Position numbers and translations under genes: made by a program. The notes under the pieces are model-generated. The model was not told the origin of the DNA. It saw only the letters and a list, made by a program, of their open reading frames with translations, and did no database searches. This document shows, in pieces, positions 13,837 through 54,732 of a stretch of 64,000 bases of DNA. The stretch spans positions 17,626,001-17,690,000 of the forward strand of contig OW204000.1 in the NCBI GenBank assembly GCA_934047225.1, in the 5' to 3' direction. Positions within the stretch are counted from its first letter, which is position 1. Every line of letters starts with the position of its first letter. The stretch is from Ypsolopha sequella (taxonomy: Eukaryota > Arthropoda > Insecta > Lepidoptera > Ypsolophidae).

Positions 13837-13881
13837 ACTTGAAATATATTTCGGCCCTTAGTGGGCCGTCATCAGTCAAGT
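13837..13881 (-). ncRNA. Hammerhead-ribozyme-like motif (copy a)
   Basis: Minus-strand RNA order: ACUUGA, CUGAUGA, C, GGCCC-ACUAA-GGGCC hairpin, GAAA, UAUAUU, UCAAGU. The outer ACUUGA/UCAAGU pair perfectly (helix I), GGCCC/GGGCC is helix II, and the A of GAAA with UAUAU would form a minimal helix III. The predicted cleavage position is after the U before UCAAGU. One C sits between the CUGAUGA core and helix II, an addition to the textbook core. This is the most complete copy in the window. Activity is inference. Confidence 0.6.
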
Positions 13882-14157
13882 ATTAAAAAAAAGAAAAATA
13901 TACCATTAATAAAAACAGGAAAAGAAATAAAAAAAGACAATATTTTTCTTAACTAACCTAACCTATTTGTATTGGTCCACAAATTTTTATATCAAATAAT
14001 AAAATTATAAAATTTAAAAATTTTGTGGACAAGTACTGGTGGATCGAAAAATACGAAAAAAATCATGGCGTTATGTAAATTGGTAACATTACAGAAAAAA
14101 TATAGCGGTTGAGAAATTCACGAAAGAAAAATGACAAAATTAAATTTATTATTCACG

Positions 14158-14372
14158 ATACGGAACTCTGGGTACGCGAGTCTGACCCGCACTTGACCGG
14201 TTTTATATTATCTGTGCTTGTGCTTGTACTGTCTGCACCCGCGCTAAATATTAGGTCCTTACATATGAAATTGGCGTTTTGTATGGAGAATTTGAAGGAA
14301 ACTAAATTTTCAGTTAACATTTTTGCTTTTTTTTTGGGAATGACAAATCCAAAGACAAATACAATCTCTTTA
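14158..14372 (+). repeat. Two adjoining dispersed repeats
   Basis: At 14158-14205 is a diverged copy of the GTGCGCGAGTCCGACTC family (ACGCGAGTCTGACCCGCAC). At 14252-14372 is a repeat also present at 46388-46500 (+) and 43012-43082 (-), recognised by TTAGGTCCTTACATATGAAAT, 'GAATTTGAAGGAAACT' and 'GAATGACAAATCCAAA'. The open frame spanning both is repeat-derived. Confidence 0.65.
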
Positions 14373-14399
14373 TGGCCACTTTTTCTGTGACTTGGTTAA

Positions 14400-16020
14400 C
14401 TGAAGAAAGTGCATGATACAAAACCTTGAACTTTAAATATAGGTTGCTGTTTTTTAATCGTTGCAATAGAATAGAAGTTGATGATATAGGTATCTGAAAA
14501 AATAAAATAATAAAATTATCAACATTACTTTTTTGTTATAGCACCGCAGTGTATACCATTTTAAAAATCTCCTTAGCCAAAAGTGAAAACCGGATTAAAA
14601 TTCGTTCAGTATAATAGAGAAGACGGCAAAAGTTTGTTTGGTATTTCATTACATTTATTTAATCCATTAAAAATATATATATTGCATTTGAATTTTTAAA
14701 TTCTACTTAATATTACGTACTTATAAGCTAAATTACAATTTGTTCATAATTCTTTTTACAGATATAAAAATATATTAAATAAAACAACAATCTTAGTTAT
14801 GTTAAGTTACATTTCACTCACTGTATAAAAACATGTGAATTCGTATGTCCCCATCCCACACATTCGTCGACTCGCGTTTGCCGAAACGGTTTTGCGAACT
14901 CACCTATTTAGTTATATACCTATATATATAATGTAGATTATGTTTACTCGTATAGGCACTGACTTGAAGGCTTGTTTCTATTGAATTCGTTAGGGCAACC
15001 GCCTGCGTGCCGGGCCTGTATTGATAGATAACTCTATGCGTGTATACCTATATGAGCGTATGTGAGCTAAGCGGGAGTTTTCAGGCGAAAGCTTTCTAGA
15101 GCGAACACCACAAAAGAAGTCCCCTGTCAAAGTTCTTATTACCTTGGAATAAAAACGGAAATTCCTTAATCCGCAGGTCCTGTTTTGTAGCGTTCACTCT
15201 ATTCGGCTTATGCAAAGATGAAGGATAAAGTTTTTAGGCATACAAAAAGTGAGGGATGACTTGTGAATTCGTATGAGTCAAAAGAATCTCGTTAGAAGCC
15301 AGGCCGGAGGCTTTTATGCGTAATTTTAAGGTTAATACGGCGGGACTAATGAAATAAAAGGCTGGAGAGGAAGCACTTTTTTGTAAGCTTCTTTAAGCTT
15401 TACTAACTTTCTCATTCTGTATAAAACTGATAAATTATTTTATGCTACAATAATATCAAATGTTTTTTTTATACTTCGTTTTTGTTTATGGATATTATTA
15501 TTTATAAATAAAAAACCAGCCAAGTGCGTGTCGGGCCACGCGCGGTGTAGGATTCCGTAGTTGCCCTGCACAATATGCGGATTTCTTTTCCAAGTACATC
15601 TTATAAGCTTGTCGACTAATACCGATCGCGCCAAACTTCTAGTACGCTCGGAAGTTGCTCTTTCCAAGAACATTTTGTTCCTGCTGATGCGAATTTGGCG
15701 TGATCTGGCCCGGCACTCCCAAAAAGATTCGGTCGATCGTTTGTCGTTCGAGCATATTTCCATCTCTGAAGTATGATAGTGATGGATATACGACCGAACG
15801 TATTTCGATCGAATTTGTCACTTCGGAGTAGGTACCTTGTAAAGTCTACTTAGCTGTGATAGTTTTCCTTTTAATTTCGTTATGTATACTACTGATTTTT
15901 ACATGGCTCCAAATACAACCGTTTCGTTGGCAGGAGGGACACTTGACTCTAACAAAAATTAACACTTTTAAGCTTAATATTTCGCAAACGGAAACCTGAA
16001 TCGAAAAATGGTCTTCTCAC
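14400..16020. other. No gene recognised
   Basis: Mostly single-copy-looking AT-rich sequence. 15110-15190 shares GAAGTCCCCTGTCAAA and a following block with 9335-9410. At 15505-15560 there is a piece of the AAGTGCG...GATTCCGTAG repeat. Frames at 15440-15821 on both strands overlap each other and show no family features. Confidence 0.45.
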
Positions 16021-16679
16021 CAATCAATGGGCGGAGGTAGGCATGTATTTATATATGTAACCTATTACTATGTAGTATATAGGATGGGATTTGGTCGGCC
16101 GCCTGGATTCGTGCGGGGGCTTGGTTGGTGATCATTGAACCTGTTCCTGGTCCCTGGCCGGGTCTCCGGTATGGGTTCGGGCGGTTGATTGGATTTCACC
16201 TTGTATAATAATATTTTACCTATAATTTTAATCGTATATATATTGCTACATAAATTAAATAAACATTTAATCTAAGTAGTTCATGTACATTTATTATTTT
16301 ACTAGCTGACCCGGCGAACTTCGTTCCGCCTAACAGTCTAATAATATCGTGTTAACTTTAGTTAAACTTAATTTAGGATTTCATTAAGGTAATAACATTA
16401 ATACAACTTTTTTTGCAAATACAGAAATGTTTTCTTGCTTGCCATTGCAAAAGAAGAATGGCAGGGACCCATGTAGTTTCAGTACCGTTGTTAGGCTTAG
16501 CGTAGGGTATTGAAAATATGCAGAAATAATAGTTCTTGGAATAACTAAGAAAAAAGGTAATCGCAGTATATTTTTAAAACTTGGGGCTTAGATGTTATTT
16601 AATGATATCAAAACACTGTACATTAATACGTAAGGATCGAATTAATAACCAAACTCTTTTGTACTTTGCCGTAAATGCA

Positions 16680-17270
16680 AATGTCATCTGTCATTTCACA
16701 GAGAGTGGCTGCCAGCAACTCAGGTGAATGAAACTCTTGGTTTAAGGCCCTTAATACCGCAAAATGGGTAAATTCTAAAGCCTACTCCTCTTTTATGGCC
16801 AAACCAAAAATATTGAAAAAATGTATTATGGATTATCAACTCTAGGACAACATATGCAACATTTTTCTTTTTCGTACCACCAAAACTTCTATATGAAAAA
16901 TTGTTTCAACTGAATGGTGTTTTTTGGCTTGAATTTCCTACTGCTCCTAAGCGGCTTAGGCGATTTAATTCATTTATGCTTTGATAAATAGATAAACTTG
17001 ATAGCTATAAATATAACATAGAATTATTCAATTGAACAATGACGCCCATGTGAAAAGTATTAATTTCTCCTATTTCGCCCTTTCAAGGACGCAGCGAGCG
17101 TCGTAACAGCCACCACGCATTGTGCACTGATTTGAACGTTATTTCAATGTCGTTTCCATCGATGTTCGTACAGACAAACGTCGAGCTGCTAATTTGGCGA
17201 CGGTAATCGCCTTAAACTCTTTCTACTTCTTTCGTCCAAGGCCAGCAATGACGTTTGACGTAAGACAATA
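16680..17270 (-). repeat. Repeat family F, copy inside the Helitron
   Basis: Reverse copy of 34500-34990. Shared blocks: 'GACGCAGCGAGCGTCGTAACAG', 'AACGTTATTTCAATGTCGTTTCC', 'AGCTGCTAATTTGGCGA' and, on the minus strand, a short peptide frame GHKRGVGFR-x-YPF conserved in both copies. The conservation of that frame hints at a coding origin that I cannot name. Confidence 0.65.
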
Positions 17271-17680
17271 ATAGTAAGTGGCTATTATAGATCTATTATA
17301 CGTTTCTTTATTGCTACTGAGATATTACGAATCGCGTTTTGTTACCTACATAGAATGATTTTACTTATTTTTGTTCCCGAAGTTCTAAAAATATATTCTA
17401 AACTGAAATATTACACTCCAAACTTGACCTTTATAACACAGAGAAACTTGAGTCTCCAACGATGTCTTATTAGCTGGGTACTGAGCCTGCCATTCTTCTT
17501 TAGATGTTAAATATTCACTTAGTACACATACCAGGTATTGGGTTAACTATTTATACATCTTGAGCCTAATACTTAGGTACCTAATACATTAACAATAAAA
17601 ATTAAGTAAATTGTGGATTTTTTTTTACATTTTACACATTAGGCCTCTTCTCTCTAGCGCCAATATTGCGATACTGCATG

Positions 17681-18535
17681 TTAAAGCACTTTCTGATATA
17701 CAACATTTTTTGTTTTGTTATCCGGCGCAAAAACAAATAGAGCTGATGTTTTGCCGACACGTGAACATGCCACATACAATTGACCATGAGAAAAACATGC
17801 ATTTTCTAGATTTAGACCACAAACACTCAAGGATTGTCCTTGTCACTTATTAATCGTCATGACGAATGCAAGACGGCTCGCAAATTTAATTCGCTTGAAC
17901 TCAAAGGGTAAATCGGTTGGGATCATCGGAATCCTCGGAATGAGAACTTCCTCACCTTTGAATTTTCCTTTGAGTATCATCGCGTGTATCACATTCACCA
18001 TCAGTTTTCCAATCACCAAACGCGTACCGTTGCATAATTTTGGTTGGTTGAGATTTCGTAGCATGATGACTACTGAGCCAACCTTAAGTCGTAAATTATG
18101 CGGTGGTAAGCCAGGCACATCCAAGGAGTTTAAAAATTTAGTCGGATAGTTGGTAGCTTCGTCTACGTTTGTTACACTGTCAATAGATTTAAATGAATGC
18201 AGCGTACCAACGATTTGATTCTGAATTTCAACATTTAAGTCATCCACATCTTTGTTCTTAGCCGCCAAAATGACTCGCTCACTCAACCATTTATTGTTTT
18301 TGTGGTTAGCAATGATGTTCGGGAACACTTGGTTGATGAGCTCGTCTTTTGATGACACGAAATTGCAAAAATTTGGAGGAAACGAAATCAATCCGTTCGA
18401 TTTGTCGACAGGAACACAACCATTACCAATAGCCAGCAATTGCTTGGAGAATTCTTCAGCAGATGGATCGTTCAGCAATGTAACTCTCATGTTTTCTGTG
18501 AGCTGAAGTTTCTTCACATAGCGCCACAGATTTGA
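17681..18535 (-). pseudogene. Helitron PIF1-type helicase, C-terminal remnant
   Basis: The frame runs from LKASNLWRYVKK through LTENMR, SERVILAAKN, LDVPGLPPHNLRLKVG, LCNGTRLVIG to MTINK. A TGA at about 17856-17858 stands where the family has Ala of NKAQGQS. The same frame then goes on with QGQSLSVCGLNLE, LYVACSRVG and ends at 17681. These are late SF1B/PIF1 helicase motifs as found in Helitron Rep-Hel proteins, which separate strands during rolling-circle transposition. Walker A and the Rep nuclease are missing (deleted). Not a host PIF1 gene: the borders are those of the Helitron. Confidence 0.85.
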
Positions 18536-18540
18536 GGCTT

Positions 18541-18645
18541 TGAGGCGATTTCTTGGTCTTCTTCAGTTGATTGATTCGCCCTGTTCCGCAGCCTAACTGC
18601 ATTACGGCTTTGTTGGGAAATATTAGATCTTCTTGGTCGCGGCAT
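18541..18645 (-). pseudogene. Helitron Rep-helicase N-terminal start
   Basis: ATG at 18645 opens MPRPRRSNISQQSRNAVRLR and about 15 more residues (ANQSTEEDQEIAS). This is the typical N-terminus of insect Helitron Rep-helicase proteins. It runs straight into the helicase C-terminus in a different frame. The join lies in a tandem octamer GCCTCAAAGCCTCAAA, which suggests a microhomology-mediated deletion of the whole Rep and early helicase region. Read through, the frame ends at a TGA about 12 codons later. Confidence 0.75.
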
Positions 18646-19440
18646 TGTCAATTAGGTACTTCTCCAAAACAACAAAACAATCCAACCGACCGACCGGTAC
18701 ATAACCTCAAGCAATCGATACGCAATACGATTTTTTTTTCAATTTGACGGCTGCTGGTTTGTTGTCTTTGCACTTTGAGCTGTCAAATTGCATTGCGACT
18801 GTGGTGCCACCGGTGTTTTTTTATATTTCAACAGATGGCACCACATGCTGTTTGCATTCGTAAAATTAATTAATTAATTTATTGTTATTAGATAACTTAT
18901 CCGATATTTTATTACTTATTCTGCTATTCGGAGCGGAGAAGAATCCACCAAAAAAGAGATAACTAACATCGGTCCAGCCGATCTTGAGTTATAAGTGGTG
19001 TAACTAACACGACTTTGTTTTATATATTTAGATTACATATATTTTTATAAGATTAAAATTTGACTTGTGAAACGTGTATTATATATACCTACTTTGCAAA
19101 ATAAACTTTTTGAATTTTGAATTTGAATTTGAATTTTGAATTTTTGAATCACACCCCGAATATATTTAAATTACCTATCCAACGACACTCCACACTAGGA
19201 GACAGACGAGAAAAAAAAATCATCCCCACTTTACGTGTAGGGGAGGTACCCAAAAAAAATCTATTTCAAAATTTTACTATACCACTTGATCGGCGTGATA
19301 AATATGTATACCCATGCCAAATTACAGCTTTCTAGTACTAATAGTCTTTAAGCTAAGTCGCGGACAGACGGACAGACGGTCATGACGAAACTATAAGGGT
19401 TCCTTGTTGTTGACTACGGAACCTTAAAAAGTATAAATTT

Positions 19441-19488
19441 ATTCTGACATATATTTCGACCAACTTGTGGTCGTCATAAGTCGTTTGT
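19441..19488 (-). ncRNA. Hammerhead-ribozyme-like motif (copy b), decayed
   Basis: Minus strand: CUUAUGA (one change from CUGAUGA), C, GACCA-CAAGU-UGGUC perfect hairpin, GAAA, UAUAU, GUC. Helix II is intact with a sequence unlike copy a, while helix I pairs poorly. Read as a degenerate member of the set. Confidence 0.45.
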
Positions 19489-19922
19489 ATTATATTTAGG
19501 TAATATTATTGTTTAAAATAGAAAATAAGTATATTGTAAGATATTTCTTCTAAAAAGAAATACTTATATAGGATTATAATGTATTTGTTATATTTTAAGC
19601 TAACTTAGTGTAGTACTTTTTGTGTTTTTTTCTGTAAGAGGCATTGAATAAAGTTTTTTTGAGATAATGTAGCTGATCTTTTTTGGTAAAGTCTCATTGC
19701 GTATCGTCGTAACAACACAATAACATAAATCAAAATGGTTAAAATTAATCTATTGTTTTTATTTTATAAAATATAAATTTATTTAAATATTGTTTTAGCG
19801 ACAATAAAAATTAAGATGGTTAAAAATACTAATTATGTTTTTGTCAAATGCAATTTACTTTTATTGCTATACCTCTCTCCTAGTTTTATGCAATTATTTT
19901 AATACTTACGTAACGTAATTCT

Positions 19923-20056
19923 AGATATATTGATATATGTTATATTGATATATATTGATATATGTTATATTGATATATATTGATATATGTTATATTGATA
20001 TATATTGATATATGTTATATTGATATATATTGATATATGTTATATTGATATATGTT
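19923..20056. repeat. Minisatellite, about 25-bp unit, 5 copies
   Basis: The unit TATATTGATATATATTGATA plus TATGT is repeated about five times with almost no variation, suggesting recent array expansion. Confidence 0.85.
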
Positions 20057-20266
20057 AAGTTAGAACCAATTCGTTGCAGATTTGCAATATTTGCACAACG
20101 CAAAAAACGTGCAAGCCAGTTTTAAACAATAAACTAGCCAAAGTTTGTAAAAAACCCAAGTAAAGAATATTATACTTAAATAATTAAATATTGAAGATAA
20201 CTTATTTGTTTTTTTTTAATCAGTTTATATTATATATTTATATAAAAACACTTATTAAAATAATAG

Positions 20267-20307
20267 TTTCCAGATATATTTCGACAAATAGTCGGCTTCA
20301 GTGGAAT
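20267..20307 (-). ncRNA. Hammerhead-ribozyme-like motif (copy c, left arm)
   Basis: Minus strand: UUCCA, CUGAAGC, CGAC-UAUUU-GUCG, AAA, UAUAUC, UGGAA. Helix I UUCCA/UGGAA pairs perfectly and abuts the core. The core box differs from CUGAUGA at the last three bases, so activity is doubtful. Confidence 0.45.
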
Positions 20308-20398
20308 TTGATAAAATTTATGTATTATTTTAAAATGATTTAAAATTATTATTGACTTCATTTTATGACATTTTAAAATAATACATAAATTTTATCAA

Positions 20399-20439
20399 AT
20401 TCCACTGAAGCCGACTATTTGTCGAAATATATCTGGAAA
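20399..20439 (+). ncRNA. Hammerhead-ribozyme-like motif (copy c, right arm)
   Basis: Exact reverse-complement partner of 20267-20307. UUCCA/UGGAA and GAC/GUC pairs are present, with C at the predicted cleavage position before UGGAA. Confidence 0.45.
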
Positions 20440-20673
20440 CTATTATTTTAATAAGTGTTTTTATATAAATATATAATACTTAAATAATATTATATTTATA
20501 CAAGTGGTTTTACAAATTCTAATAGAAATTTCTGTGATAGTTTATCAGCCCTTTTGCAAGCACACAGTCTATGTTGAGACCACCATGACCCACTTTGAGG
20601 GCGGGCGGGCCACATTGGTTGATAAATGTTACCCGCGCCAGCAGTAAGAGGCCATATTTCAGACAATTTAGTC

Positions 20674-21736: not shown

Positions 21737-21749
21737 ATCTAGTTGAAGG

Positions 21750-22241: not shown

Positions 22242-24552
22242 TCGAGATTTTTTATTTCAGGGCCGTATTTAGAGTGGTATGGAGGTAAACATACTCAAAG
22301 TCCAGGGACTTACGGTTTGTGCTAGGAGGGGGGGGGGAGGTCCCGATTTTTGGTTTGTAGCTTCTGTCTCAAAAGCGGTGCATTATGGCTAAAAGTGGCT
22401 GAAAATAGGTTAAAGTCTATAAAATTGCTCTAACACATAATGCAGTTTCAGAGAAAGTCACCTACAAAACTCAGATTTTTCAAAAAGTGTACTTTTTTCA
22501 AGTTTTTTTGCTAAACTTTGCTTTAATTGCTCTTTATTGTGCATTTTGTGCATTTGTGTTTATTGTATATTTAACAACATTAAATTGTCATTAAAATAAA
22601 TACAAGTATTTTATACAATAAGCCCTGGTAGAGTTCCTTTACCTACTTTACTTCCTGGGTAGCATCAAAATAAATAAATAAAATTAAATAAAGTTTATTA
22701 GCAAAACACAAGGTAACAAAATCTCTTAAAATAGTGTTAAATAAATAAATAAATAAACAAACGCTTGTTCTGAAAAAATAACTTTATTTTGATACGACAG
22801 TTAAAACAGCGACAATATGTGCAAAAGTTCAAGTGAAGTAAAACAAAAGCTTGTAAAAATTACCGAAAAATATCATAGAGGGAAAGGTCGAGGAGAAAAG
22901 AGGAAGAGGAAAACCTAGACGCACAAGTGAAGGATAACAAGAGGTCATAATCATTAGCAGCAGAAAGAGAAGAATGTCGGTTCCTCTTCAAACAAGAGCG
23001 TAGCTCTCAAAGTTCTAGATTGATTGATACACACAAAGTTTTTTAAAAGCACTATCAGGAGTGTATGGTTAATAGCATTGGTTAGTAGTAGTTTTGTAAC
23101 ATTTTACCAAAAACACTATGAGATTTGAATGCAGCATAAGTCTTTCCAAATCCTCGTCGTCACAAGCTGAGGTTGAGGAAGCAGGAAAAAATGATTTCTG
23201 AGGTGGTATGGTGCACCAGCAAAGGAGACATAGTTAAATTATTATCGATACCAAACATTTGTGAAGTCTGTGGCAAACATAAAACCAGACATCTCTTCGC
23301 TAAGGAACATTCCTTCAAGACTTACTACCAGGTCCAGCTCTGGCTTGGAAATGAGCTTTCTCCTGAACTCTGGGGGTAGGAGCGAAATCCAGATAATCTG
23401 CTTGCTCATGTTCAAACAAAAGACTTAGCCGCCCCAGATGAAGTGCTGAATATTATATTCTGTCGTTGCACCAAAAGATGCGCCAGTAGCAAATGTGGGT
23501 GCAGGAAAGCATCATTAAACTGCTCCCCTGTTTGTCGAAACTACCACGGGAATTATCTCAAAGGCATCCCCATCTCGAAAGATCATGATGATAATGCCAA
23601 GGAAGCCCCCTCACATCCTTAGAGGAAGCAATGGGAAAATTTAAATTGCCACCATCTGAACAGATCTCAGTACACTCTAGCCCAAAGAGGGTAAAAAAAT
23701 TAAAATCTCATTTTACAATCTTAATATTTTTCTATATTTTAACTTTTTTTAATTTTTAAAATATACAAAATATATGGCGCTTTTTTATGATATTGTACCT
23801 TCCCATAATGTACCACTATCCATTTAGCCAATTATTTACTCGATAATGAAAAGAAGACATAAACAAAGGTTCTGTTTTGCGCATTTCTTATGCAAAATAT
23901 AAAAAAAATTAAGTAATTTTGGTTAGCGGAATTAAAAAAAAGTTCTCTGTGTCGATTCTCGAAATTTTCGTTAATATAATTATAACACTTTCCTTAGAAA
24001 TGCACAATAAAGAATAGATGAGGCAAAAACATTCATTAAAATTAGAGTGAGTTGACAAAATACATTGTTTACTGTGCAAGGAGACACTGGCCGAGCTTAC
24101 AATGAAGTTATGACTCATTCATCATCAACGGGACTCAGAAGTTCAGAAGTGCGCGCGGCTTTCAGTCGTGTGCTGGAATCCCTTCCCTCCTTCGAGTCCT
24201 GATGATGATGTGTCATAACCTCATTGAAAGCTTGACCTGTACCTCCATGCACAGTTAAAAAAGCGAGTCAAATCCGTAATTAAAATATTTGAGATGAGGC
24301 AAGGCTATATCCGAAACTGTTAAGAGATACGGGTCATGTGTCAGAGCAATCTTGTAGGGAATTTCATATACTTGAACTTATTCTCAACCACTTTTTAGCT
24401 ACAGTGCGCCGCCTTTGAGATAGAAGCGAATAACCAGAAAACTAGAAACGCCCCCCTCTCCAGCCCAAATCTACTAAAAGCCCTATCCAAGGCCTTTGAG
24501 TATGTTTACCTCCTTACTACTCTAAATACGAGTTGAAATAAAAAATCATCAA
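22242..24552. mobile_element. DNA element with long degenerate inverted ends and a CXC-protein relic
   Basis: The left end (GATTTTTTATTTCA then CGTATTTAGAGTGGTATGG, AGGTAAACATACTCAAAG) reappears reversed at about 24494-24552. Weaker inverted similarity continues for about 250 bp inside (CTTCTGTCTCAAAAGCGGTG; GCTCTAACACAT). The interior holds a decayed gene ending in a CXC cysteine cluster (23173-23622). I do not recognise the transposon superfamily, and the target duplication is not clear. Outer borders are good to about 15 bp. Confidence 0.6.
23173..23622 (+). pseudogene. CXC (tesmin-like) cysteine-rich protein, C-terminal part
   Basis: One frame with a single internal stop (TAG at 23377-23379, in a WGW-like position). 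Upstream of the stop: NICEVCGKHKTRHLF and a YYQVQLWLGNELSPELWG segment. Downstream: IIFCRCTKRCASSKCGCRKA then SLNCSPVCRNYHGNYL. The C-x-C-x4-C-x5-C-x-C-x6-C-x3-C pattern is a zinc-binding CXC motif. A very similar combination (a QQWLGN-like stretch followed by a CXC motif) is familiar from uncharacterised, multi-copy insect proteins. Lying between inverted repeats, it is probably the element's own gene. No earlier domain is recognisable upstream. Confident on the motif, not on the role. Confidence 0.6.
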
Positions 24553-25337: not shown

Positions 25338-25622
25338 TTATATAAAAACGGCTCACCTCAATACGTGTTATGATCGGGAAAGCCGACCAGTTTCAGCAGA
25401 TTTAGACTGCCTTCATCTGGGCGAGTGAAGACGTTTACGCGACGACGTTACGCCTCACACTCACCTTCATATGGGCGAGCGAATACGTTTAGTTTGAGTG
25501 TGAGACGTAACGTCGTCGCGTAAACATCTTCACTCGCCCAGATGAAGGCAGTCTAAATCTGCTGAAACTGGTCGGCTTTCCCGATCATAACACGTATTGA
25601 GGTGAGCCGTTTTTATATAAAT
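25338..25622. repeat. Long palindrome (foldback element)
   Basis: Arms begin TATATAAAAACGGCTCACCT and are almost perfect complements for over 100 bp, including GGGCGAGTGAAGACGTTTAC. The centre contains a second related pair. No coding. A hairpin with CTGAAAC near its arms recalls the ribozyme-like motifs, but the GAAA box is absent. Confidence 0.85.
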
Positions 25623-33095: not shown

Positions 33096-33107
33096 GATTT
33101 ACTCATC

Positions 33108-33152
33108 ATTCCACTGACGACGACTACAATTTAGTCGAAATATATCTCGAAA
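33108..33152 (+). ncRNA. Hammerhead-ribozyme-like motif (copy d)
   Basis: Plus strand: UUCCA, CUGACGA (fits CUGANGA), C, GACUA-CAAUU-UAGUC, GAAA, UAUAUC, UCGAA. Helix II is perfect. Helix I UUCCA/UCGAA has one mismatch. A canonical C lies at the predicted cleavage position. Confidence 0.55.
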
Positions 33153-33186
33153 ATAATCTAAAGCTAAAATAATATGTTGTTTATTA

Positions 33187-33453
33187 TACAAGGTGACTTT
33201 TTGATCGTCGTCCAAATTCATACTGGAGACTTGATAAGTGATCAGTATCTTGGATAAATAAAACATTTTGTGAAATCTGTAAAATGAAATTTCGGCTTCC
33301 CATAGAAATTAACTTCCAGTTCCGAGTGAATCACTATGGGGAGTCAAAATTTCATTTTACGTATTTTACAAAAATTGTTATTGATCCATGATACTGATCA
33401 CTTACCAAGCCACCATTATGAATTTGGACGATGGTCAAAAAGTCACCTTGTAT
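33187..33453. mobile_element. Foldback MITE, ACAAGGTGACTTTTTGATC family (copy 1)
   Basis: Ends TACAAGGTGACTTTTTGATC and complement, with arms that include CCAAATTCATA and AAGTGATCAGTATC. Copy 2 is at 42733-43000. The right end is only 2 bp from the next MITE. Confidence 0.85.
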
Positions 33454-33455
33454 AA

Positions 33456-35903: not shown

Positions 35904-36732
35904 ACTACTCTGCACTTGGCCTCGGTCCGTGCCACTTTTACCTCTTAGAAAAAGAGAGAAATTAAGAATAAAAATAATAGGGATGTGACGACCCCATCGC
36001 CCTCTGGTATGTCCTGTACGTCCAGTGCAATCAGTCACCGCAGGGCGGCTTGTGGCGAGCCGATGGTGAGTGGCGACACCACGGACCCTACCTCCAGGGG
36101 ACACTATCACACATGCGCTTACACACACACATACACACAGAAACACACCCCCTACCTCTGCGCTTGCCTTAACCGGCCGGCCAGAGTGGAGATGCAAGAG
36201 CGGAACCTATGCTCCAGGTTGGAAGTGTAAAATGTCATAACGCCGGGGGCACTTGACTGTTAGAAGGATCTTGCGCCCCGCAGACTCACCTCTCGACAAC
36301 CTTAGCTGCTTACATAGTGTTGCCCCCTGGCCGCCCCATGGTGGCTAGATAGGGGGCCCACAACGACTATCCTGTTAGATAGTTATCAAGCAGCAAGTCA
36401 CCATCTGCCATATTTAAATTTGTGAGAGATTTTCGAGGCAGATGTCCGTTATCTCACTCCATAGCCCTGTTATCCGGCCCATTTAGCATCCCATCCTCAT
36501 AGCCCACTCCAAGTCGCTTCCTTCCTGGCAATAGTTTGGCAACTGTGGGGGACTGTCCGTTAGTGTATCACAATGATACATTGAGGGAGAGGCCTCCATG
36601 GATGCAGCCATCTCACATCTAGATTAAATGGTACCAAAGGCCTCTTCAATGTTGGCTTCGGCCCCATGAATGCCTTTCAAATGACCGGGTCCCTATGGGC
36701 CCGTGACTGAAAAGTGTACCTACATAATAATA
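35904..36732 (+). mobile_element. 3' UTR of the R2/R4-like element
   Basis: A GC-richer stretch with stops in all frames, including GCCCCCTGGCCGCCCCATGG and 'GCCTCTTCAATGTTGGCTTC'. It ends in (ATA/TAA)n at 36723-36735, directly before a hammerhead-like motif. R4/Dong-type elements are known to sit in TAA repeats (established), which fits the TAA tracts at both ends. Confidence 0.5.
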
Positions 36733-36775
36733 ATAACTGATGCCGGGCCCAGTGGGGCCCGAAATATATCTTGGA
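36733..36775 (+). ncRNA. Hammerhead-ribozyme-like motif (copy e)
   Basis: CUGAUGC (A to C at the last core base), C, GGGCCC-AGUG-GGGCCC, GAAA, UAUAUC, UUGGAC. Helix II is perfect. Helix I has about three pairs only. Probably inactive. Confidence 0.4.
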
Positions 36776-37249
36776 CTATATTATGTTATTCTACAATAAT
36801 TGTGTTTCTTTTATGTGTATTTACCTATATAATTATATATAAAAAACGAAAAAACAAGCTGATAAAGGCAATATATATATTTTTAATTCATTTGTAAATT
36901 ATACATATTCTTAAGATAGTGTGTGTTTATTCCGATCGGATAAGAGAATATATAGGTTACCAAATATCTATTTTATAAGTACACTGATTTAAAAATGAAA
37001 TATTATAAAAAAAGTTTTCTATGGAAATAAGAAATTCTTTATATTTCGACTAATTCTAATTATCAAATGATTTTGGTATTCCGTTTGTATGAACTATGCA
37101 TCCTCCGGCCTCTTAAGATGGGCCATCCCGCTTAGGCGTTTGTGACGTCCTGATGGCTTTGTTCTCAATGAAACTTTGCACACATTTTATATATGTTTCC
37201 CTTCTCCTCTACACCGCACTCCGACCCATCTCTCGTCAAGAGGTGCAAC

Positions 37250-43000: not shown

Positions 43001-43011
43001 ATACATACACC

Positions 43012-44947: not shown

Positions 44948-44998
44948 AACTTCGACTGATGACGGCCTCATACCGAGGGTCGAAATATATCGAGTATT
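44948..44998 (+). ncRNA. Hammerhead-ribozyme-like motif (copy f)
   Basis: ACUUCGA, CUGAUGA, then CGGCCUC-AUACC-GAGGGUC, GAAA, UAUAU, CGAGU. The core is fully canonical and CCUC/GAGG closes helix II. Helix I can form as ACU(U)CGA with UCGAGU if one U is bulged, which would move the cleavage base to A. Confidence 0.5.
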
Positions 44999-45230
44999 CT
45001 TCTTTTTATTGTTTTAACAGTAATAAATAAACAAAAAAAAATGTGTAATAAACATAATCATCCATCCATCCACCCAATAAACAAATATAAAAATATAATT
45101 GTTACTTTTTGGAGCCTTTTGATTTTTTCTATCGTAATGGATCTCTTTGATGTCTAATACATAATGTATATGAGTATATAAATAAATATTAATATTATTA
45201 ATTAAATATTAATACTTTATTTTATAAAAA

Positions 45231-45276
45231 TCTCAATATATATTTCGGGTCCGATCTGGACCCGGCATCAGTTGAG
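45231..45276 (-). ncRNA. Hammerhead-ribozyme-like motif (copy g)
   Basis: Minus strand: CUCAA, CUGAUGC, C, GGGUCC-AGAUC-GGACCC, GAAA, UAUAUA, UUGAG. Both helices pair perfectly and differ in sequence from copies a, c and d. The last core base is C, not A. It faces copy f, about 235 bp away. Confidence 0.5.
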
Positions 45277-45789
45277 TTTATCTAAATTTTATAATATTTT
45301 GTGCAACTGTAACATAATGTGAGACATTGGGACACGAGTGCTTGTTTACGAAACAAACGAAGTAAGTTTCGTGAGTTTCGTAAGATTTTTGCACGAGTGA
45401 TTCATTACTAGGGCCCATCCTCTTTGGAATTTTTTCAACATACTTAGGGCGCTCTTATCCCAAAATCAGTAATTTCAAAGTCAAATAGAACTTTCAAATA
45501 TCGTCTAAAACTTCCAAAAAAAAAATGTAATATAGCTCAAACCTTTATCTAGGTCTTCCACGCATGTGTTACACGATCAAATAAACTTTGCTCGATAGAA
45601 ATAATTCACGAACACAGCATGTAATAAGACCTTTCAAATCATGCCATTTCCATAATTCCACTCTTTTATTAACGAAACATATCTGGTAATATTGCTCTTT
45701 AAATTTTCTAGGTCGACCACGTAAGTGGTTTTTAATAAACATATCCCTTATTTTTAAACAATTTAAAAACCGATAAAAACAACGGAAAA

Positions 45790-46260: not shown

Positions 46261-46387
46261 TCCCGCCAATTTTGGTTTTGGCTATATCTCCTAAAGTAGT
46301 TGTCAGAATTATATGCGTTTTTTTTCTAAAACTAGATTAAATTCTTTATAAGTTAAAATTTTACTCAAAATTATATAAAGAATAATA

Positions 46388-47475: not shown

Positions 47476-47605
47476 CCTGCACTGAGATCCCCAGATTCAG
47501 CCATTAAAATTGATCTGGAGACAGGATCCTGGCTGGGTAAACTAAATTTTCAGTGTATATAGTGTATATATGGATTAACATAGATTATATATATATATAT
47601 ACTGG

Positions 47606-47860: not shown

Positions 47861-47934
47861 AATAACTGGTGCCAATCTCGTCATTAAGCTTTCCAAGTAT
47901 AATAGTGTAATGTACTGACTGATATTAATAGTAG

Positions 47935-48310
47935 TTTATGCTACAAGGGCGAAAAGGAATAAATTAAGATGATGATTTAAAACACGAGCATAGCGAGTGT
48001 TTTAAACGTAACCGAGTAATTTATTGCTCTTACGCCCGTGTATCATACTACGTTTTTCAAAGCATAGTGTGAGGAAATAAAACAAATATATTCTAGTGAA
48101 CTTTAAATTATGATTGGCTCAAAAGGACTGTATCCAAAGCCGTCAAACATTGGAAAAAAAAGTATAACATTTATGGTACAAAGGTTGCAGGTTAGCCAAC
48201 TTCTCGTAATAAATTAAAAAATAATAATAATAAAGCCCTAGGGCAAAATAATCGACTTTCTGTTCGGTTTTGATGCATAAAAAGTGGGCCTTTACGAGCA
48301 ATTAATTGAA
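47935..48310 (+). repeat. Family A dispersed element, copy 3
   Basis: Ends only about 53 bp before the transporter exon acceptor. About 93% like 43450-43842 by eye, with small deletions. Confidence 0.8.
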
Positions 48311-48363
48311 AATAACATTACTTATACCTGTATAATTAATCAACATTATCGTATATAAAGCAG

Positions 48364-49716
48364 GATTTTTCATATTCCTGCGTGTTCTGGTTACGAGAAA
48401 ATTACACTAGGTACCCCGACGTAACGATTTTCGTTTCATTTGCAGCAACCGCCGTGACACTGACATCAAACCTTGGCATGTTGTTATCGTCATATTTAAT
48501 GGACAAGTGGGGCCGAAAAGCGTCTCTAAAAATTATGATGATTCCTTGCATCGTAGGCTGGGTAATGATCTACTTCTCATACAACATCACCACACTCATG
48601 ATTGGCCGAGTTCTTGGGGGATGCGGATTGGGATCAGCACTAGTTTTGGGTTCAACTATTGTGGGAGAGTATACTGGTCCAGAGAACAGAGGGTGGTTTT
48701 TGGGATCCAAGACAGTATTTTACTATTTTGGCGTAGCTATACTGCACGTTATGAGCAACTATTTTGATTGGAGAACAGTTGCCTTGTTAAGTATTATACC
48801 TTTTGCTATACTATTTATATGTCTTTTGACATGGCCAGAAAGCCCACTATGGTTGGCTTTGAAGGGTAAATACGATGAGAGTGACAAGTCATTTCATTGG
48901 TTAAGGGGAAGGAGTGAGAAATCTGAAAAAGAGTTTGAATTGCTGATAAGGACACAGAAAAAAAGAATTTCTATTGAATCACAGATATCATTTCGAGATA
49001 AGATAGAAGTATTTTTAAAGCCAGCTATAATTCAGCCAATGTTCATAACTTTCTTCGGTTTTACACTATTTGAAGCATGTGGCAGACATACATTCCCGGC
49101 ATATGCAGCTGATATAATTGGAGAAATAAGTGGGAATATGAAATGGCATTCTTTTTTGTTTACAATATGCATTGACTTGTTAGTCATAATTGCTAATTTG
49201 TTATCATGCGTGTGTACTAAATTATGTAACAGACGGACAGTTTTATTTTACAGCGGAATATTTGGTTTAATCGTGTTAACTGTTTTAACTACTTATTTGT
49301 TTTTATCGTCGATAGGGGTCATATCTAAGGATCGTCCCTTAATACCACTTTCGATACTTGTTTTATACTGCGGCATAGTTAATGTTGGATGTACATCTAT
49401 ATCTTTAACCATTTTTGGTGAAATATTTCCTTTAGCTAACAAAGGTATAGTAATGGCTATGGGTGCACTGATACATTCTATTCCTCAGATACTTTATTTA
49501 AAAGTGACACCCAGCATGTTAGCAAATTTCAAGGTATACGGTACATTTACTTTTTATGGCACAAGTAAGGCTGTTGCATTATTATATTTGTATTTTTATT
49601 TACCTGAGACGAGAAATAAAACGTTACAAGAAATAGAAGAATACTTTATGAATGGAAAATTATTGGACGACAAAAAGAAAATAAACGATGAAGAAGAAAC
49701 TAGGCAGATGATTTGA
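48364..49716 (+). CDS. MFS sugar-porter-type transporter, main exon
   Basis: Encodes 450 residues of a membrane transporter of the sugar porter family, which moves hexoses or trehalose across the plasma membrane; insect relatives are often named facilitated trehalose transporter Tret1-like. Motifs in order (joined numbering with exon 1): MDKWGRK after TM2 (about 82), GRVLGGCGLGS in TM4, EYTGPENRG (about 138), PESPLWLALKG (194), WLRG, then the second half with CNRRTV, GEIFPLANKG and the terminal PETRNKTLQEIEEYF (450). There is no ATG at the 5' end: the frame is open from a CAG|GAT acceptor at 48363/48364, so the start lies in another exon (35315-35422 proposed). Odd points: the usual QQ-x-SG of TM7 reads FEACGRHTFP, and no intron interrupts the remaining 450 codons. 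Substrate cannot be told from the sequence. Confidence 0.9.
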   Translation, partial: DFSYSCVFWLRENYTRYPDVTIFVSFAATAVTLTSNLGMLLSSYLMDKWGRKASLKIMMIPCIVGWVMIYFSYNITTLMIGRVLGGCGLGSALVLGSTIVGEYTGPENRGWFLGSKTVFYYFGVAILHVMSNYFDWRTVALLSIIPFAILFICLLTWPESPLWLALKGKYDESDKSFHWLRGRSEKSEKEFELLIRTQKKRISIESQISFRDKIEVFLKPAIIQPMFITFFGFTLFEACGRHTFPAYAADIIGEISGNMKWHSFLFTICIDLLVIIANLLSCVCTKLCNRRTVLFYSGIFGLIVLTVLTTYLFLSSIGVISKDRPLIPLSILVLYCGIVNVGCTSISLTIFGEIFPLANKGIVMAMGALIHSIPQILYLKVTPSMLANFKVYGTFTFYGTSKAVALLYLYFYLPETRNKTLQEIEEYFMNGKLLDDKKKINDEEETRQMI

Positions 49717-50195
49717 ATCGTCTTCTTTTGTAAATACATATAAGTCAGTTTAAGTTTAAGTAAGTACATACATATCAATAGATAATACATATTCCAACAA
49801 AGTTTCCGTAGATAGATCGATACAATGATGCTGTTATTGTAGTTACATATTAATTAAAATGACCCAACTACTTATTAAATAAGTAAATTCTTGAGTAGGA
49901 AAATTATAAACTGAAGGGTTGGTTGATGTCTTTTGTGCTACTGTTTTATCACTAGAAATTGAAGGTTTCTGTTTTGAAAAATCTGATTTCGATAATTTCT
50001 ATAAAAATAGAATAACTAGTCAGCCTAACCGAATGCTCAAAAGATATAGGAGGATAACAAATCTTTAGAATTAGTCAGGCCACCTGAATTGAATTGAATT
50101 GATCAAATTGGGTCTTGAACCTCTTGTGTGAAAACAGGATTTGTTAAATTTATTGATTCATCAACATTTTTCAACATTGTATTGTGTTTTGTGTT

Positions 50196-50201
50196 AATAA
50201 A
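50196..50201 (+). promoter_or_regulatory. Likely polyadenylation signal of the transporter
   Basis: AATAAA about 480 bases after the stop, followed by a T-rich stretch. It is the first exact match in an otherwise repeat-poor 3' region. Confidence 0.4.
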
Positions 50202-50481
50202 TGAATGCTATTGATTAGTTTTCTCTATTTATCTATAATTGGGTCGCACAGTTACTCTAAATGTGCCTGAACTTGCATGTCATTGCTATTTTATGTTTCA
50301 TTGTGCCATAACCATCCTTAACACACCTTAAAAAAACATAACATACCTTAAAAAAAAAACTCTATATTACTAGCTGCCTTGATCCTAGCCACATAGATTC
50401 GCAACGAGACTGTATGACTCATGTACCAATCGATGTTTAAAATACTCCTGGAATAACTTTTAGAATGCCTTGGTATACCAA

Positions 50482-50810
50482 ATCAAATCAAAATGAAAAA
50501 ATATTTATTTCAGGCAGGGCCCATAATTACTCATTACAAAATTAAAAACATATAAATACATAACAGGATGAAAACATTAATACAATAATAAATAAATACA
50601 ATAAGTCCACTCCTCACTACCGGAGCCACTACCCACCCACATGTAGAACCACCCAGTGCATCAGCATTGGCGAATCCCATCTGTCCAACAATGTGCGCAG
50701 GATCACGTTGGCATCGCATAATGGCGACTCTTTCTATGCTATCTTGTACAACATGTTTAATACTTGTATTCCTAAAAAACGTTAGCCAAAGGGTAATCAA
50801 AAGACATATC
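50482..50810 (-). mobile_element. Non-LTR retrotransposon 3' end
   Basis: The minus strand ends AATATTTTTTCATTTTGATT and TGATTTGG, the same tail style as 46818-47475 but with different UTR. The 88-codon frame (50534-50800) includes GSTCGWVVAPVVRSG, which I do not recognise; it may be the last coding part. Confidence 0.5.
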
Positions 50811-51496
50811 TCATCAGGCTTACGATTGATTTAGTTCAAAGTCTAAACCAGAAAGCAGCTCTTCACCGGAAATGGAAAGCTACAAAAAATCAAAACGTTA
50901 TTTAGCAAACTCAGAACTGAAGTGAAGGCTAAAATTTCCTGTAGGTATGATGAGTGCATGGGTAACATTGCTTCTGACGTATGTACTTCGCGTACCAAAT
51001 AAGCGCCAAAAGAGAGAGAATCTTCACAGATATTGCATCCTACAACAAAGACTCTTATGCCTTAAGTCTTACAATTCCATCTAAAATTTAAACCGCTGTC
51101 GACCGTTTTCATTGAAAAATACGACACGCTTGGTTTTCATAGAGTTCGATGCAATTGCGTCTTCTATTTAGATCAATGTCTGTGATTTGAGCCAAAGGTA
51201 AGTGGCATACTGGCGAGGCTGCAGCAGAAGATTTTACTGATTTCGTTAAAACTTTTTTTTGGCTTTGAACCGTATATTGTAGCCAAACGTATATTTCGTG
51301 ACGAGTATAAAATGGCGGATTTTCTTACCCGAGGAGTAAAGCTTACATTCCGAGGGTAAGAAAATCCATTTTTACTCGTTGCGAACGATACTTTTTCTAC
51401 TACCTGATTTATGTATCTAAATATTAAATTTTTCCTTTCAAATTTAATGTATTTTATGACTTTGCAAAGCGCGGCGCGGTTTTTACCTTTTTTTTT
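50811..51496. other. No gene; palindrome at 51293-51395
   Basis: The palindrome has CGAGTAAAAATGGATTTTCTTACCC-type arms (GATTTTCTTACCCGAGG / CCGAGGGTAAGAAAATCC). The rest has no features. Confidence 0.5.
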
Positions 51497-51812
51497 TCAG
51501 GCTTCGGCTGGCGTCTTTTATTTGTAACCAGTATCATTTTGCGAAAAAAGAGTGCCAGACGCGATATAATCAATTATGTAGTGAATCGGAACGCAGGGAA
51601 TTTCGATTGTAATGACAAACTAAGGACGTCAAAAAGAACCTAATTTAGCATGAAATGAAGACAAACGTCAAAAAGAACCTAATTTTGCAATAAATGAAAT
51701 TTCAATACGATATTTCAAACTGACCTGATAGTCATTCCGCAACGGGGCCCGGAAAGTTCGATTTTCAAAACAATTTTCGAGTATTAAATGGAACTTTTTC
51801 ATAAAGGTAGTA
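51497..51812 (+). repeat. P-like repeat, direct copy of 28530-28850
   Basis: Very similar over about 300 bp in the same orientation, 23 kb away. Contains the doubled CAAAAAGAACCTAATTT. Divergence begins abruptly after TTTTTCATAAA. Confidence 0.85.
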
Positions 51813-52877
51813 AAAAATATTGATTTAATGCATTGATTTAATGTGTTTATCAAAACGACATTACAGCATGTAATCACATTAGTGACCGCTCTGTTCGGTG
51901 CTAGTGAAATGTGCTATAAACGTGACACGTGGAGATCTGGCCGTACGTAACCAGAAATTCTGAATCAGATATTGGCAGTTTCCGAACGGTAAATTGCAAA
52001 ACAGCGAGCGTTTTGAAACTGACGACGCCGTTTGTAATGCCGAAAGTTACTATTTGCCTGCCGCATATGTATTATAATGTTTTACGCCCTTAATGTAGGA
52101 AGAATTAGTTAAAGCATTAGCCGTAGACAAAAGTTGTTTTTATAGGAAAGTAATGTCATATCGTTTAGCAGGAAACGGTTTTAAACTAACATCTAGTTTC
52201 GTTATTTTAACTGGCAATTAGAAATTGAGTGCAGTTGCTGCAAGAAGTTTGTAATGAAAGAAGATGACCCAAAGTTCGTAACTGGCTCGAACCTAGCTTC
52301 GTAACTGGCTCGAACCTAGCTTATTTAAGTCTTTATGAAAGTTTAGTTCAAAATTTAAAAGGTTTCTGAATCTCTGCTTATTGTGAATTTTGTCAACCTT
52401 CGATGGATGCTCGACTATAGAATAAGGTCGCATCAAAGAAAATGTAAAATAATACCAAAATATTTGTATTCATTCCTGTTTTAATGAATGATGAATTGAT
52501 GATTCATTAAAATTATACGAAGAAATTTATCAAAACTCATAATCATAGGTAAGAAACAAATTTATTTCTTCTATTTAAACACAATTAATTAATTACACAA
52601 CATTAATTACATTAATTTATTAACACAAGTAATTAATTACATAACAAATAAAAATATAACCTAACCTAACCTAAACTTAAAACTAAATAATCCTGTAAAT
52701 ACTGAAAACTTTAACTAAAGACCTAAAAACAAATATGTTATTATAAATTAAACTAAATGAAAAATTTTGAATCCATATTAGGATTTACATTTACTAAGTT
52801 AAATAAGGGAATTTGATCCAGCTGCTCATAATTACTATGTTTTACATGGTAACAACCGTCTTAGTTACGTACTTCCA
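51813..52877. other. No gene; 23-bp tandem duplication at 52276-52321
   Basis: TTCGTAACTGGCTCGAACCT (then AGC) occurs twice head to tail. AT-rich region 52440-52800 with many AATTAATTA runs. A short CCTAACCTAACCTAA near 52660 resembles three insect telomere units. Confidence 0.5.
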
Positions 52878-53264
52878 AGGTTAAAAGTCGCGGTTGCTTA
52901 GCGCTAAGTGCATAACTTAACTTTGTACTTCTTGTTCAAGTTAAAAATTTAAAAACCTTTTGGTATGTGGCAATTGACGTAAATAGTTCAGTATAAGTGA
53001 GGTTTATAAAGCATGAGTATGAAATTTAATACACAATTAGTCATGGTCTTGTCCAAACAAAGTTAAAACAGCATTTTAAGTTGGTTTTGAGAAGATCATG
53101 ACTAATTGTGTATAAAATTTCAAAATCTTGCTTTATAAACCTCATAATACTGAACTGTTGTCGTCAAATGCCACAGACCAAAATGTTTTTCAATTTTAAA
53201 TTTCTAAACAAGAAAAACAAAGTTAAGTTATGCACTTTGCGCTAAGCTACTGACGTTTAACCTT
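52878..53264. repeat. Long palindrome (foldback element), 387 bp
   Basis: Arms AAGGTTAAAAGTCG...CGACTTTTAACCTT-like, with TAGCGCTAAGTGCATAACTT, GAGGTTTATAAAGCATGAG and CACAATTAGTCATG mirrored. No coding. Confidence 0.85.
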
Positions 53265-53665
53265 AATTTTATCTATTTGCATATTGATTGAGTTTATGTA
53301 CCAGCTAGATAGTAAAGATAGTTTCAGATTGCCCCTTTACTATATATCTAAAAATATATCAAAATATATCTAAAAGTATATCTAAAAATGTGAAAAAATA
53401 GCTTGAAGAAATTTAGAAATATGATGTGATGACGAATAGAGTTGATTCAAAACATCCATGTGAGGGCTGTGCTGAAAAATATGGGCTCGAAGTATTTAGA
53501 ACATTAAAAAGTCTTCGACCAAAATAAAATGAATGGACGGGCGTGAGGATTTTTGAATCCTGCAAAGTGAGCGCCGGCTCTCACTTCATCTCAGTCGGTC
53601 TCTGTCTGTTAGAAGTGCGACACGTACGCTTATTATTACATGCCATGAAAATAACTGACGAAAAA

Positions 53666-53782
53666 ATGCCTTCTTGTGCATTCCCAAAGTGCAAGAACAC
53701 TACCAAAAAGCAAAATAAAAGTTCAGGCATCACATTTCACGCGTTATTACATGTTTATCAATCTATTTTATCACAAAAGTAA
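53666..53782 (+). pseudogene. THAP zinc-finger first exon, truncated
   Basis: MPSCAFPKCKNTTKKQNKSS then GITFHALLHVYQ: a good THAP N-terminus (C-x4-C...FH). After FHA the other copy at 4546 has a GTAAGT donor, whereas this copy has GTTATT, so splicing is probably lost and the frame ends 13 codons later. It lies in sequence rich in TTGTACCA boxes (53940-54265), which may be the element's subterminal repeats. Confidence 0.55.
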
Positions 53783-53939
53783 CTAATTGCAATAAACATT
53801 GTTTCGTTGTCTCCATTTTGTTGTTTATCCCATCGTAACAGGATAGAAATATACGAATATCCATAGTGCGACAAGGAAAGCTTGCTTTGTTCGACAATGC
53901 CGATCTTAGTCCAGATGTACCGACAGCAAACTAGTTTTA

Positions 53940-54265
53940 TATTGTACCACTAATGTACCAAGTTGTACCAATCGATCGAATAAAACCTATGTTCATCAGT
54001 TTTTTTAAACTAACTGTTTAATAATATTATAGATTGATACATGAAATTTCTTTGTTTCTAATTAGTTGTACAAAATACACTAAAGAAAAAAAAAAGGACA
54101 TGGGCACAATCATAATATTATACGACCCTACACATTAACTTACCGAACACAAAATATATATTTTTTAATTGTACCAAAAAATGAACAGATTTTTTTATTT
54201 TGTACCAAATCGTTTTGCTAACGCTACTTTTAGTAATAAACCGATTTGGTACAAAATGGCTACTC
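53940..54265. repeat. Cluster of TTGTACCA boxes
   Basis: (T)TGTACCA occurs at about 53945, 53957, 53967, 54170 and 54203, and in reverse at 54245; the last two form a hairpin GTACCAAATCG/CGATTTGGTAC. Such clusters often mark transposase binding regions. Confidence 0.45.
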
Positions 54266-54465
54266 TTGTTTGGTCTTCAAATGTTAAACGGTTCAAAAGC
54301 AACAGATAAAAGCAGGTGTTCTCTTTTTCTCACGTAGTTCTTGTATTCGCTATCTTTTTTTTTTGTAGCAAATGCACGATATATACTTACAATTAGGTAT
54401 TGAAGTATATATCTAATTGCTTAGACTCGTTATGAGTGAGCAAATTGTGAAGACAAGGCCCGTCC

Positions 54466-54543
54466 AAATTTTTTCATATTTTTTTATTGCCAAACTTGAC
54501 CTTCTGGTTGCTTTTCCGGAAAAAAGTTCTATGCACGCCACTG
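54466..54543. mobile_element. Single end of the CAGTGGCGTGC MITE family
   Basis: TTGCTTTTCCGGAAAAAAGT, then TCTATGCACGCCACTG; the right half of 47606-47860, here with the outer CACTG intact. Confidence 0.6.
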
Positions 54544-54546
54544 CTT

Positions 54547-54732
54547 ACATGTATTTCTTTGGTTTATTTATTGATAGTAAAACAATAAAAATACGTTTTA
54601 CTCGATATATTTCGGCCCACGGTATGGGGCCGTCATCAGTCGAAATATATACTGTGGGCAGAAATATATCGAGTAAAAACGTATACATTTTTAATATTTA
54701 ACTATCAATAAATAAACCAAAGAAATACATGT
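54547..54732. repeat. Palindrome with a hammerhead-like motif
   Basis: CATGTATTTCTTTGGTTTAT and TTATTGATAG at the left are mirrored on the right. The centre holds a full motif on the minus strand and a partial one on the plus strand (54650-54675). Confidence 0.8.
54600..54642 (-). ncRNA. Hammerhead-ribozyme-like motif (copy i)
   Basis: Minus strand: UUUCGA, CUGAUGA, C, GGCCCC-AUACC-GUGGGCC (one bulge or mismatch), GAAA, UAUAUC, GAGUA. Core canonical. Downstream sequence (UUUUUAUUGUUUUAC...AAUAAAUAAAC) is shared with copy f. Confidence 0.5.

Follow-up and report, generated by a model that had tools for sequence, protein, structure and literature searches.

What are nine hammerhead-like ribozyme motifs, each with one base too many in its core, doing in a single stretch of moth DNA? 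The stretch, hereafter the window, comprises 64,000 nucleotides of the genome of Ypsolopha sequella (contig OW204000.1, positions 17,626,001 to 17,690,000), and we followed the motifs from it into the rest of the genome. Very probably they are hammerhead-ribozyme motifs carried by a number of related families of retroelements in a lepidopteran genome, all of them Penelope-like elements (PLEs). The basis for this reading is the anatomy of the motif, its linkage to PLE genes in five families, the covariation of its helices, the conservation of its core, and its copy number. Hammerhead motifs in PLEs are an association already known; the altered core is the departure here. An altered core in elements with intact genes bears on the question of why PLEs retain hammerheads. 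A first-pass annotation of the window had assigned the motifs to one lepidopteran retroelement family. Its interpretation is partly supported: the retroelement, the hammerhead architecture, the extra C and the host hold, and the single family gives way to several.

Nine motifs in the window

All nine annotated motifs were found again, at their sites and on their strands. Each presents, in order, a CUGANG-like box, a single base at position 9, a C, a hairpin, GAAA and UAUAU. The extra C between core and helix II is present in all nine, as is G12. The boxes had all been described as CUGANGA-like, which passed over a C at position 9 in four copies (20267, 20399, 36733 and 45231); the remaining five have A there (13837, 19441, 33108, 44948 and 54600). 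Two entries need qualification. The 19441 copy is present, with a broken core (CUUAUGA) and a G at the cleavage position. The copies at 20267 and 20399, both real, are the two arms of one palindrome and not independent of each other, and their helix II has only 3 bp.

A strict core (CTGANGA, zero or one extra base, a stem of at least 4 bp, and GAAA) has five occurrences in the window, where 100 dinucleotide shuffles average 0.11, and all five sites have exactly one extra base. One such site outside the nine, at 24199 (+), combines CTGATGA plus one base with a 4-bp stem and GAAA; it has no model match and is probably a chance occurrence. A covariance model trained on 27 genomic copies, none of them from the window, recovers all nine motifs with E-values from 9.7e-13 to 2.6e-4, and its next match has an E-value of 0.67.

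Linkage to Penelope-like elements

The proposed retroelement origin is upheld by the association of the motifs with PLE genes encoding reverse transcriptase and GIY-YIG domains at genomic loci outside the window, to which we gave L-numbers. L021 contains tandem units of 3.8 kb, whose 915-aa open reading frame (ORF) matches the Pfam domains RVT_1 (5e-8) and GIY-YIG (1e-4, at its cut-off). From the ORF to the start of the motif there are 290 nt, and from the end of the motif to the following ORF 740 nt. L171 has an uninterrupted 913-aa ORF, 68% identical to that of L021, which matches RVT_1 at 1.6e-8 and GIY-YIG at 0.0046, below its curated cut-off; its motif has the core CTGATGC+C, the base after the plus sign being the insertion. 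L171 appears to be one unit of a tandem array, judging from motif spacing at C1:8441739-8453544 and from repeated flanks. Two families, then, have uninterrupted genes of 913-915 aa in 3.8-kb tandem arrays. Both features that mark PLE membership are found here, namely reverse transcriptase and GIY-YIG in one ORF, and tandem units with pseudo-long terminal repeats (pLTRs).

PLE C-terminal sequence precedes the motif, and shares its strand, in families A (L151, L156, L005), B (L159, L160), C (L021, L025, L026, L168), D (L161) and F (L171). Across seven units measured from these five families, the motif stands 164-349 nt from the end of the ORF or protein match. The 3′ regions of the five families align in six of ten pairings (A-B, A-D, A-F, B-C, B-D and C-D), and the best stretch includes the motif in all six. 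Most other loci that we examined have no PLE gene nearby, as expected for truncated copies.

The PLE protein has 724 relatives; among the 120 listed, those that carry a name are called only hypothetical, unnamed, uncharacterized or reverse-transcriptase-domain protein. Searching the PDB with the L171 protein returned nothing at E 0.01. The PLE gene gave 90 stretches in viral contigs, none of them a relative, and 15 in bacterial and archaeal genome contigs, two of which are relatives (L173 and L174); these two records are presumably animal DNA inside assemblies. At least 120 stretches of viral contigs fit the motif pattern, which has only 17 fixed bases, and were taken as chance. A retrozyme-like arrangement is seen at L172:221-891, a 96-bp tandem array of 7.1 copies in which the motif is mostly CTGACGCC with a long helix I.

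A core with an inserted C

In the hammerhead, A9 pairs with G12 beside helix II, and G12 acts as the general base. The motif agrees with the hammerhead at C3 U4 G5 A6 N7 G8 and at G12 A13 A14, a few decayed or truncated rows excepted. It departs from it in that A9 does not stand directly before helix II, a C being inserted in all families seen.

Exact patterns were counted over 866.8 Mb in 151 contigs; the counts (4,172, 7,656, 186, 46 and 71) come from patterns of differing strictness and share no common scale. The core CUGAUGAC (pattern CTGATGAC...GAAATATAT) has 4,172 exact matches against one for the reversed pattern, and the core CUGANGCC (pattern CTGANGCCG...CGAAATATAT) has 7,656 against none; the former pattern fixes U7 and leaves the CG stem ends free and the latter does the opposite, which makes the ratio inexact. 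The C9 form is clearly no rarity in the genome. More than 11,000 exact matches to a core changed at places held essential raise the question of whether PLE hammerheads have been selected for weak or switchable cleavage.

Leaving the core unfixed and anchoring on the stem plus GAAATATAT gave a table of 25 distinct rows, 24 of which represent the motif. The inserted C is present in all 24, and N7 and position 9 are the most variable positions, bar a few truncated or decayed rows. The covariance model gave 76 matches in 40 loci; after eight truncated, decayed or doubtful rows had been dropped, 42 distinct rows remained. The inserted base is C in 40 of these and G12 is present in 40. Position 9 is A in 35, C in five, T in one and G in one, figures that are no estimate of the A9:C9 ratio, the 40 loci having been chosen via an A9 pattern.

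Exceptions to the inserted C were also counted. The uninserted core CTGANGAG...CGAAATAT has 71 genome matches against four for the reversed pattern. Some coincide with decayed copies, the sequence is known for one of the 71 only, and the genome may hold a rare canonical family. For a non-C insertion (A9, U7 form) there are 186 matches; among 100 of them listed, most are, by eye, copies with a single change or a duplicated TGA.

Pairing between the inserted C and G12 is possible, and such a core may be slow or require assistance. A U-A version of this pair has 46 genome matches, which decay of two CpG sites could yield. As a test of exchange this is weak, both bases lying within CpG, and the G-C version was not searched.

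This host does not appear to be alone in having an extra core base. In L174, a PLE that is 30% identical and whose record is labelled Deltaproteobacteria, a motif at 2768-2806, about 386 nt after the ORF, has the core CTGAAGA+A, with an extra A after A9, and helix I ATCTC/GAGAT. The other PLE record, L173, gave no motif in the same search, which allowed zero to three bases after CTGANG; the extra A is one case of two records.

Pairing of the helices

The annotation had named loss of pairing in other genome copies as grounds for abandoning the idea, and the outcome was the opposite. We examined 35 copies, 34 of them distinct. Helix II keeps its pairing while its sequence varies, as claimed, with 88.7% of its cells paired; helix I is paired in 51.0% of cells in one register and 61.8% in the other. 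Two-sided changes occur in four of six counted helix II pairs and in all six helix I pairs across the 34 distinct copies. None of 500 shuffles reaches the observed covariation score, in either helix I register. The number of two-sided pairs is reached by 76 of 500 shuffles and the number of pair types by 36 of 500 in the first register, and by 392 and 403 of 500 in the second. Related copies can beat shuffles without any structure. The covariation claimed for the outer helix (helix I) stands as to the score, which lies beyond all shuffles, and is weakened by the two registers, the poorer pairing and the unremarkable pair counts.

Among 29 motif strings hand-picked to differ, 26 of which come from searches with part of the core held constant, between two and four pair types are found at each of the helix II pairs 10.2 to 10.5, and pair 10.1-11.1 is G-C throughout. 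In families B-D, helix I, on our reading, would pair better if helix III is AUAU and the cleavage position is A. The AUAUAU of helix III hardly varies and allows 1-2 bp at most within one motif, and its covariation is unreadable.

Where the copies end

Fifty-two copies were aligned to one master per family, and the exclusion of eight rows that reach the master end and of one L021 row left 43 truncated copies. Of the 43, 23 begin at the outer edge of helix I, with at most 13 nt ahead of the core. Counted per locus, with two distant L019 copies kept separate and L012 entered by its longer arm, the figure is 16 of 31. The uniform null applied to the per-locus count is a crude one, and every copy had been selected for having the core. 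The pile-up comes from loci among L009-L028 and L151-L170 and from window positions 36735 and 44951; the remaining copies have 5′ ends dispersed over PLE sequence as far as about 250 nt upstream. Over the 250 nt upstream of the 23, seven share nothing with the others, and the upstream matches of the other 16 are, by eye, a reverse-complement motif plus tail or the opposite arm at that locus. As there is no shared upstream sequence beyond inverted arms, hidden subfamilies do not explain the pile-up, which ties the ribozyme motif to copy making. A search for tail-only copies beginning at the cleavage site gave 18 matches that start after the core and was uninformative.

Twelve head-to-head pairs of copies were compared. 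The inverted arms are 5-29 nt apart in nine pairs, 64 nt at L024, 88 nt at L028 and 1,117 nt at L019. Palindromic insertions with a short spacer occur in the window at 20228-20478 and at L011, L012, L013, L016, L017, L018, L020, L023 and L157. Such palindromes would fit fold-back of the cDNA or reverse transcription from both target strands. An Anolis PLE protein cleaves and extends both strands in vitro (PMC11167929; papers cited by PMC number are represented here by excerpts).

A possible mode of action

An autonomous unit spans about 3.8 kb and consists of one reverse transcriptase/GIY-YIG ORF, the motif 164-349 nt later, and a tail of roughly 100 nt. The tandem arrangement places the motif upstream of the next ORF as well, in the pLTR. 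The copies in the window are short, 5′-truncated 3′ ends, some of them joined head to head. RNA of tandem units would fold into CUGANG(A/C)C, helix II and GAAA, with the flanks forming helix I. The AUAUAU (or AUAU), too short for a stable helix III alone, is self-complementary and could pair with that of a second motif. Pairing of this kind would allow cleavage after H17 in dimers, cutting multi-unit RNA into units, and the invariant AUAUAU fits such a dimer model. With the inserted C and the frequent C9, the core would work slowly, or require dimerisation or the protein of the element. Processing of tandem transcripts would then fall to a core with little activity by itself.

We speculate further, with a proposal that we consider rather unlikely to be right in full. 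A hammerhead lineage would have rebuilt its core. Every family seen has the C after position 9, including the two whose PLE genes are intact; one of these two, and many other copies, also have C9. By holding G12 in a Watson-Crick pair, the inserted C would keep the ribozyme inactive, and release would come from a second motif, by way of AUAUAU, or from the PLE protein. The same fold would set the 5′ ends of new copies at the outer edge of helix I, and these copies would often be completed as palindromes.

Weighing the explanations

Several observations weigh against functional hammerheads of PLE families. The Rfam hammerhead models have no match in the window, either at gathering score or at E <= 10, which the annotation had named as one of three results that would speak against it; the Rfam hammerhead families likewise fail to match further motif copies, at lax thresholds too. 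The best Rfam matches in the window are apparent inverted repeats scored as miRNA precursors. Since the Rfam models miss this form, model-based ribozyme surveys may undercount. C9 often replaces A9, a defining core base, and does so even in one intact tandem PLE (L171). RNAfold pairs the inserted C with G12 in nine of nine test copies, and in that predicted fold the usual core would be blocked. In the loci examined, the families of the 19441, 20267/20399, 33108 and 45231 copies have no adjoining PLE gene. The A and C 3′ regions share only short alignments outside the motif, and B-F, C-F and D-F give no alignment at E 0.1. As excerpted, the Anolis study reports that hammerhead mutants left insertion in vitro unaffected and that zero RNA-seq reads ended at the cleavage site; it also reports that other PLE hammerheads self-cleave in magnesium, which tells against a general need for protein (PMC11167929).

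The predicted pair with G12 is at the centre of an alternative that we hold to be possible, if doubtful: that the motif is no longer a ribozyme and survives as a hammerhead-derived stem-loop (CG...CG, with C and G12 paired) serving as a protein-binding site or as a start or stop signal for reverse transcription. The inserted C and G12 are nearly invariant as well as pairable, position 9 is often C, and the 23 copies of the pile-up end just 5′ of the motif. Yet C3, A6, G8 and GAAA/UAUAU are nearly fixed while N7 varies among T, C and A, which is the hammerhead pattern. Nor is there any family-scale exchange of the C-G12 pair, the 46 U-A matches being a weak guide at CpG bases.

The per-locus pile-up and the L172 array could also mean that these copies form a short non-autonomous element in its own right, akin to a retrozyme or SINE, made up of motif and tail and moved by PLEs. 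We consider this decidedly improbable, as the remaining 5′ ends are scattered through PLE sequence and intact PLE units end in the same motif and tail. The near-perfect arms of the head-to-head pairs recall the terminal inverted repeats of a DNA transposon, an idea that we rejected as scarcely credible: arm length differs between pairs, and the intact units, which code for reverse transcriptase, follow one another in direct orientation. A chance origin of the motifs in an AT-rich window can be dismissed. The box CTGANGA by itself is only mildly enriched (26 against 16 expected), but the hold-out model, the shuffles and the genome counts refute this account.

Relation to known systems

Cervera and De la Pena in 2014, and Lunse, Weinberg and Breaker in 2017, reportedly described minimal type I hammerheads in the pLTRs of PLEs. 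The motifs here resemble these in their position in the unit, reduced helix III, tandem units and self-complementary AU-rich helix III segment, and differ from them in the constant C after position 9 and the frequent C9. In the excerpts available, PLEs are described as carrying minimal hammerheads without helix III (PMC6155905), and double hammerheads in PLEs are cited from Lunse et al. (PMC6466107). The Poseidon hammerhead of Anolis carolinensis is likewise part of a PLE with tandem units, lies near the border of pLTR and ORF and has stems I and II only; its ORF begins at stem II, whereas that of L021 begins 740 nt downstream of the motif (PMC11167929). The Anolis hammerhead cleaved only with PLE protein added (PMC11167929).

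For the extra core base, the annotation had pointed to a viroid. De la Pena and Flores reportedly found, in 2001, an extra A between A9 and helix II in chrysanthemum chlorotic mottle viroid. The likeness is one extra base at the same place; here, in contrast, the base is a C able to pair with G12, often accompanied by C9, and the setting is a retroelement. The precedent is in the literature, and the excerpted text ties it to weak cleavage (PMC6155905, PMC11014351).

Metazoan retrozymes, as excerpted, are short tandem repeats with type I hammerheads and resemble the 96-bp array of L172 (PMC7229834). Most copies here differ in being dispersed PLE 3′ ends, and retrozymes measure about 170-400 nt (PMC11722881). 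Among titles and the beginnings of abstracts, we found neither hammerheads in lepidopteran PLEs nor this core, a weak negative given that key PLE-hammerhead studies lay outside the reach of the search.

The copies in the window

The first copy (13836..13883, −) belongs to family A and has the core CTGATGA+C, hairpin GGCCC/GGGCC and helix I ACTTGA/TCAAGT. It is held in a PLE 3′ fragment (13776-14036) that shares 91% identity with the 3′ end of L151, where PLE coding sequence lies directly upstream of the motif. The decayed copy (19441..19488, −) reads CTTATGA+C with hairpin GACCA/TGGTC. The head-to-head insertion at 20228..20478 has arms at 20228-20346 and 20360-20478, 97% complementary and separated by a 13-nt spacer. 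Its left arm carries the motif at 20266..20309 (−; core CTGAAGC+C, helix I TTCCA/TGGAA), the flank of which resembles the L172 array, and its right arm the motif at 20397..20440 (+), with the same core.

The copy at 33106..33153 (+) has the core CTGACGA+C and hairpin GACTA/TAGTC. At 36729..36777 (+) the core is CTGATGC+C and the hairpin GGGCCC/GGGCCC; here, window positions 36735-36888 match the motif-plus-tail segment of the L171 tandem PLE at 95% identity, and the copy starts 2 nt 5′ of the core. The family B copy at 44948..44998 (+) has hairpin GGCCTCATACCGAGGGTC and core CTGATGA+C, and its match to the family master starts 5 nt before the core. The copy at 45230..45279 (−) combines the core CTGATGC+C with hairpin GGGTCC/GGACCC and helix I CTCAA/TTGAG. 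The last copy (54597..54647, −), again of family B, has the core CTGATGA+C and hairpin GGCCC/GGGCC. It stands in a head-to-head insertion (54547..54732) with inverted arms at 54547-54592/54687-54732 and 54596-54625/54649-54678, the right arm of which has only the 3′ half of a second motif.

Two further stretches resemble parts of these copies. A possible family B fragment at 12744-12795 (−) starts within the GAAAUAUAU string and has no core. From the middle of the 33108 motif onwards, 33136-33454 shares 83% identity with L157:3104-3421, a segment that has no model match; the window stretch includes the inverted repeats 33183-33314/33325-33456.

Other contents of the window

A Tret1-like sugar transporter ORF of lepidopteran type lies at 48382-49716 (+). 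Among its 120 listed relatives, every named one ranking above the whitefly P0212 belongs to a species that we take to be lepidopteran, in agreement with the host given by the annotation. A Pif1 helicase domain fragment (17843-18517, −), an integrase ORF (59771-61288, −), an RT RNase H fragment (63497-63979, −) and a DUF7869 ORF (61820-62596, +) are probably the remains of other mobile elements. Long near-perfect hairpins at 25429-25529, 59148-59238 and 526-616, with Rfam miRNA-precursor scores below threshold, are probably the remains of palindromic repeats.

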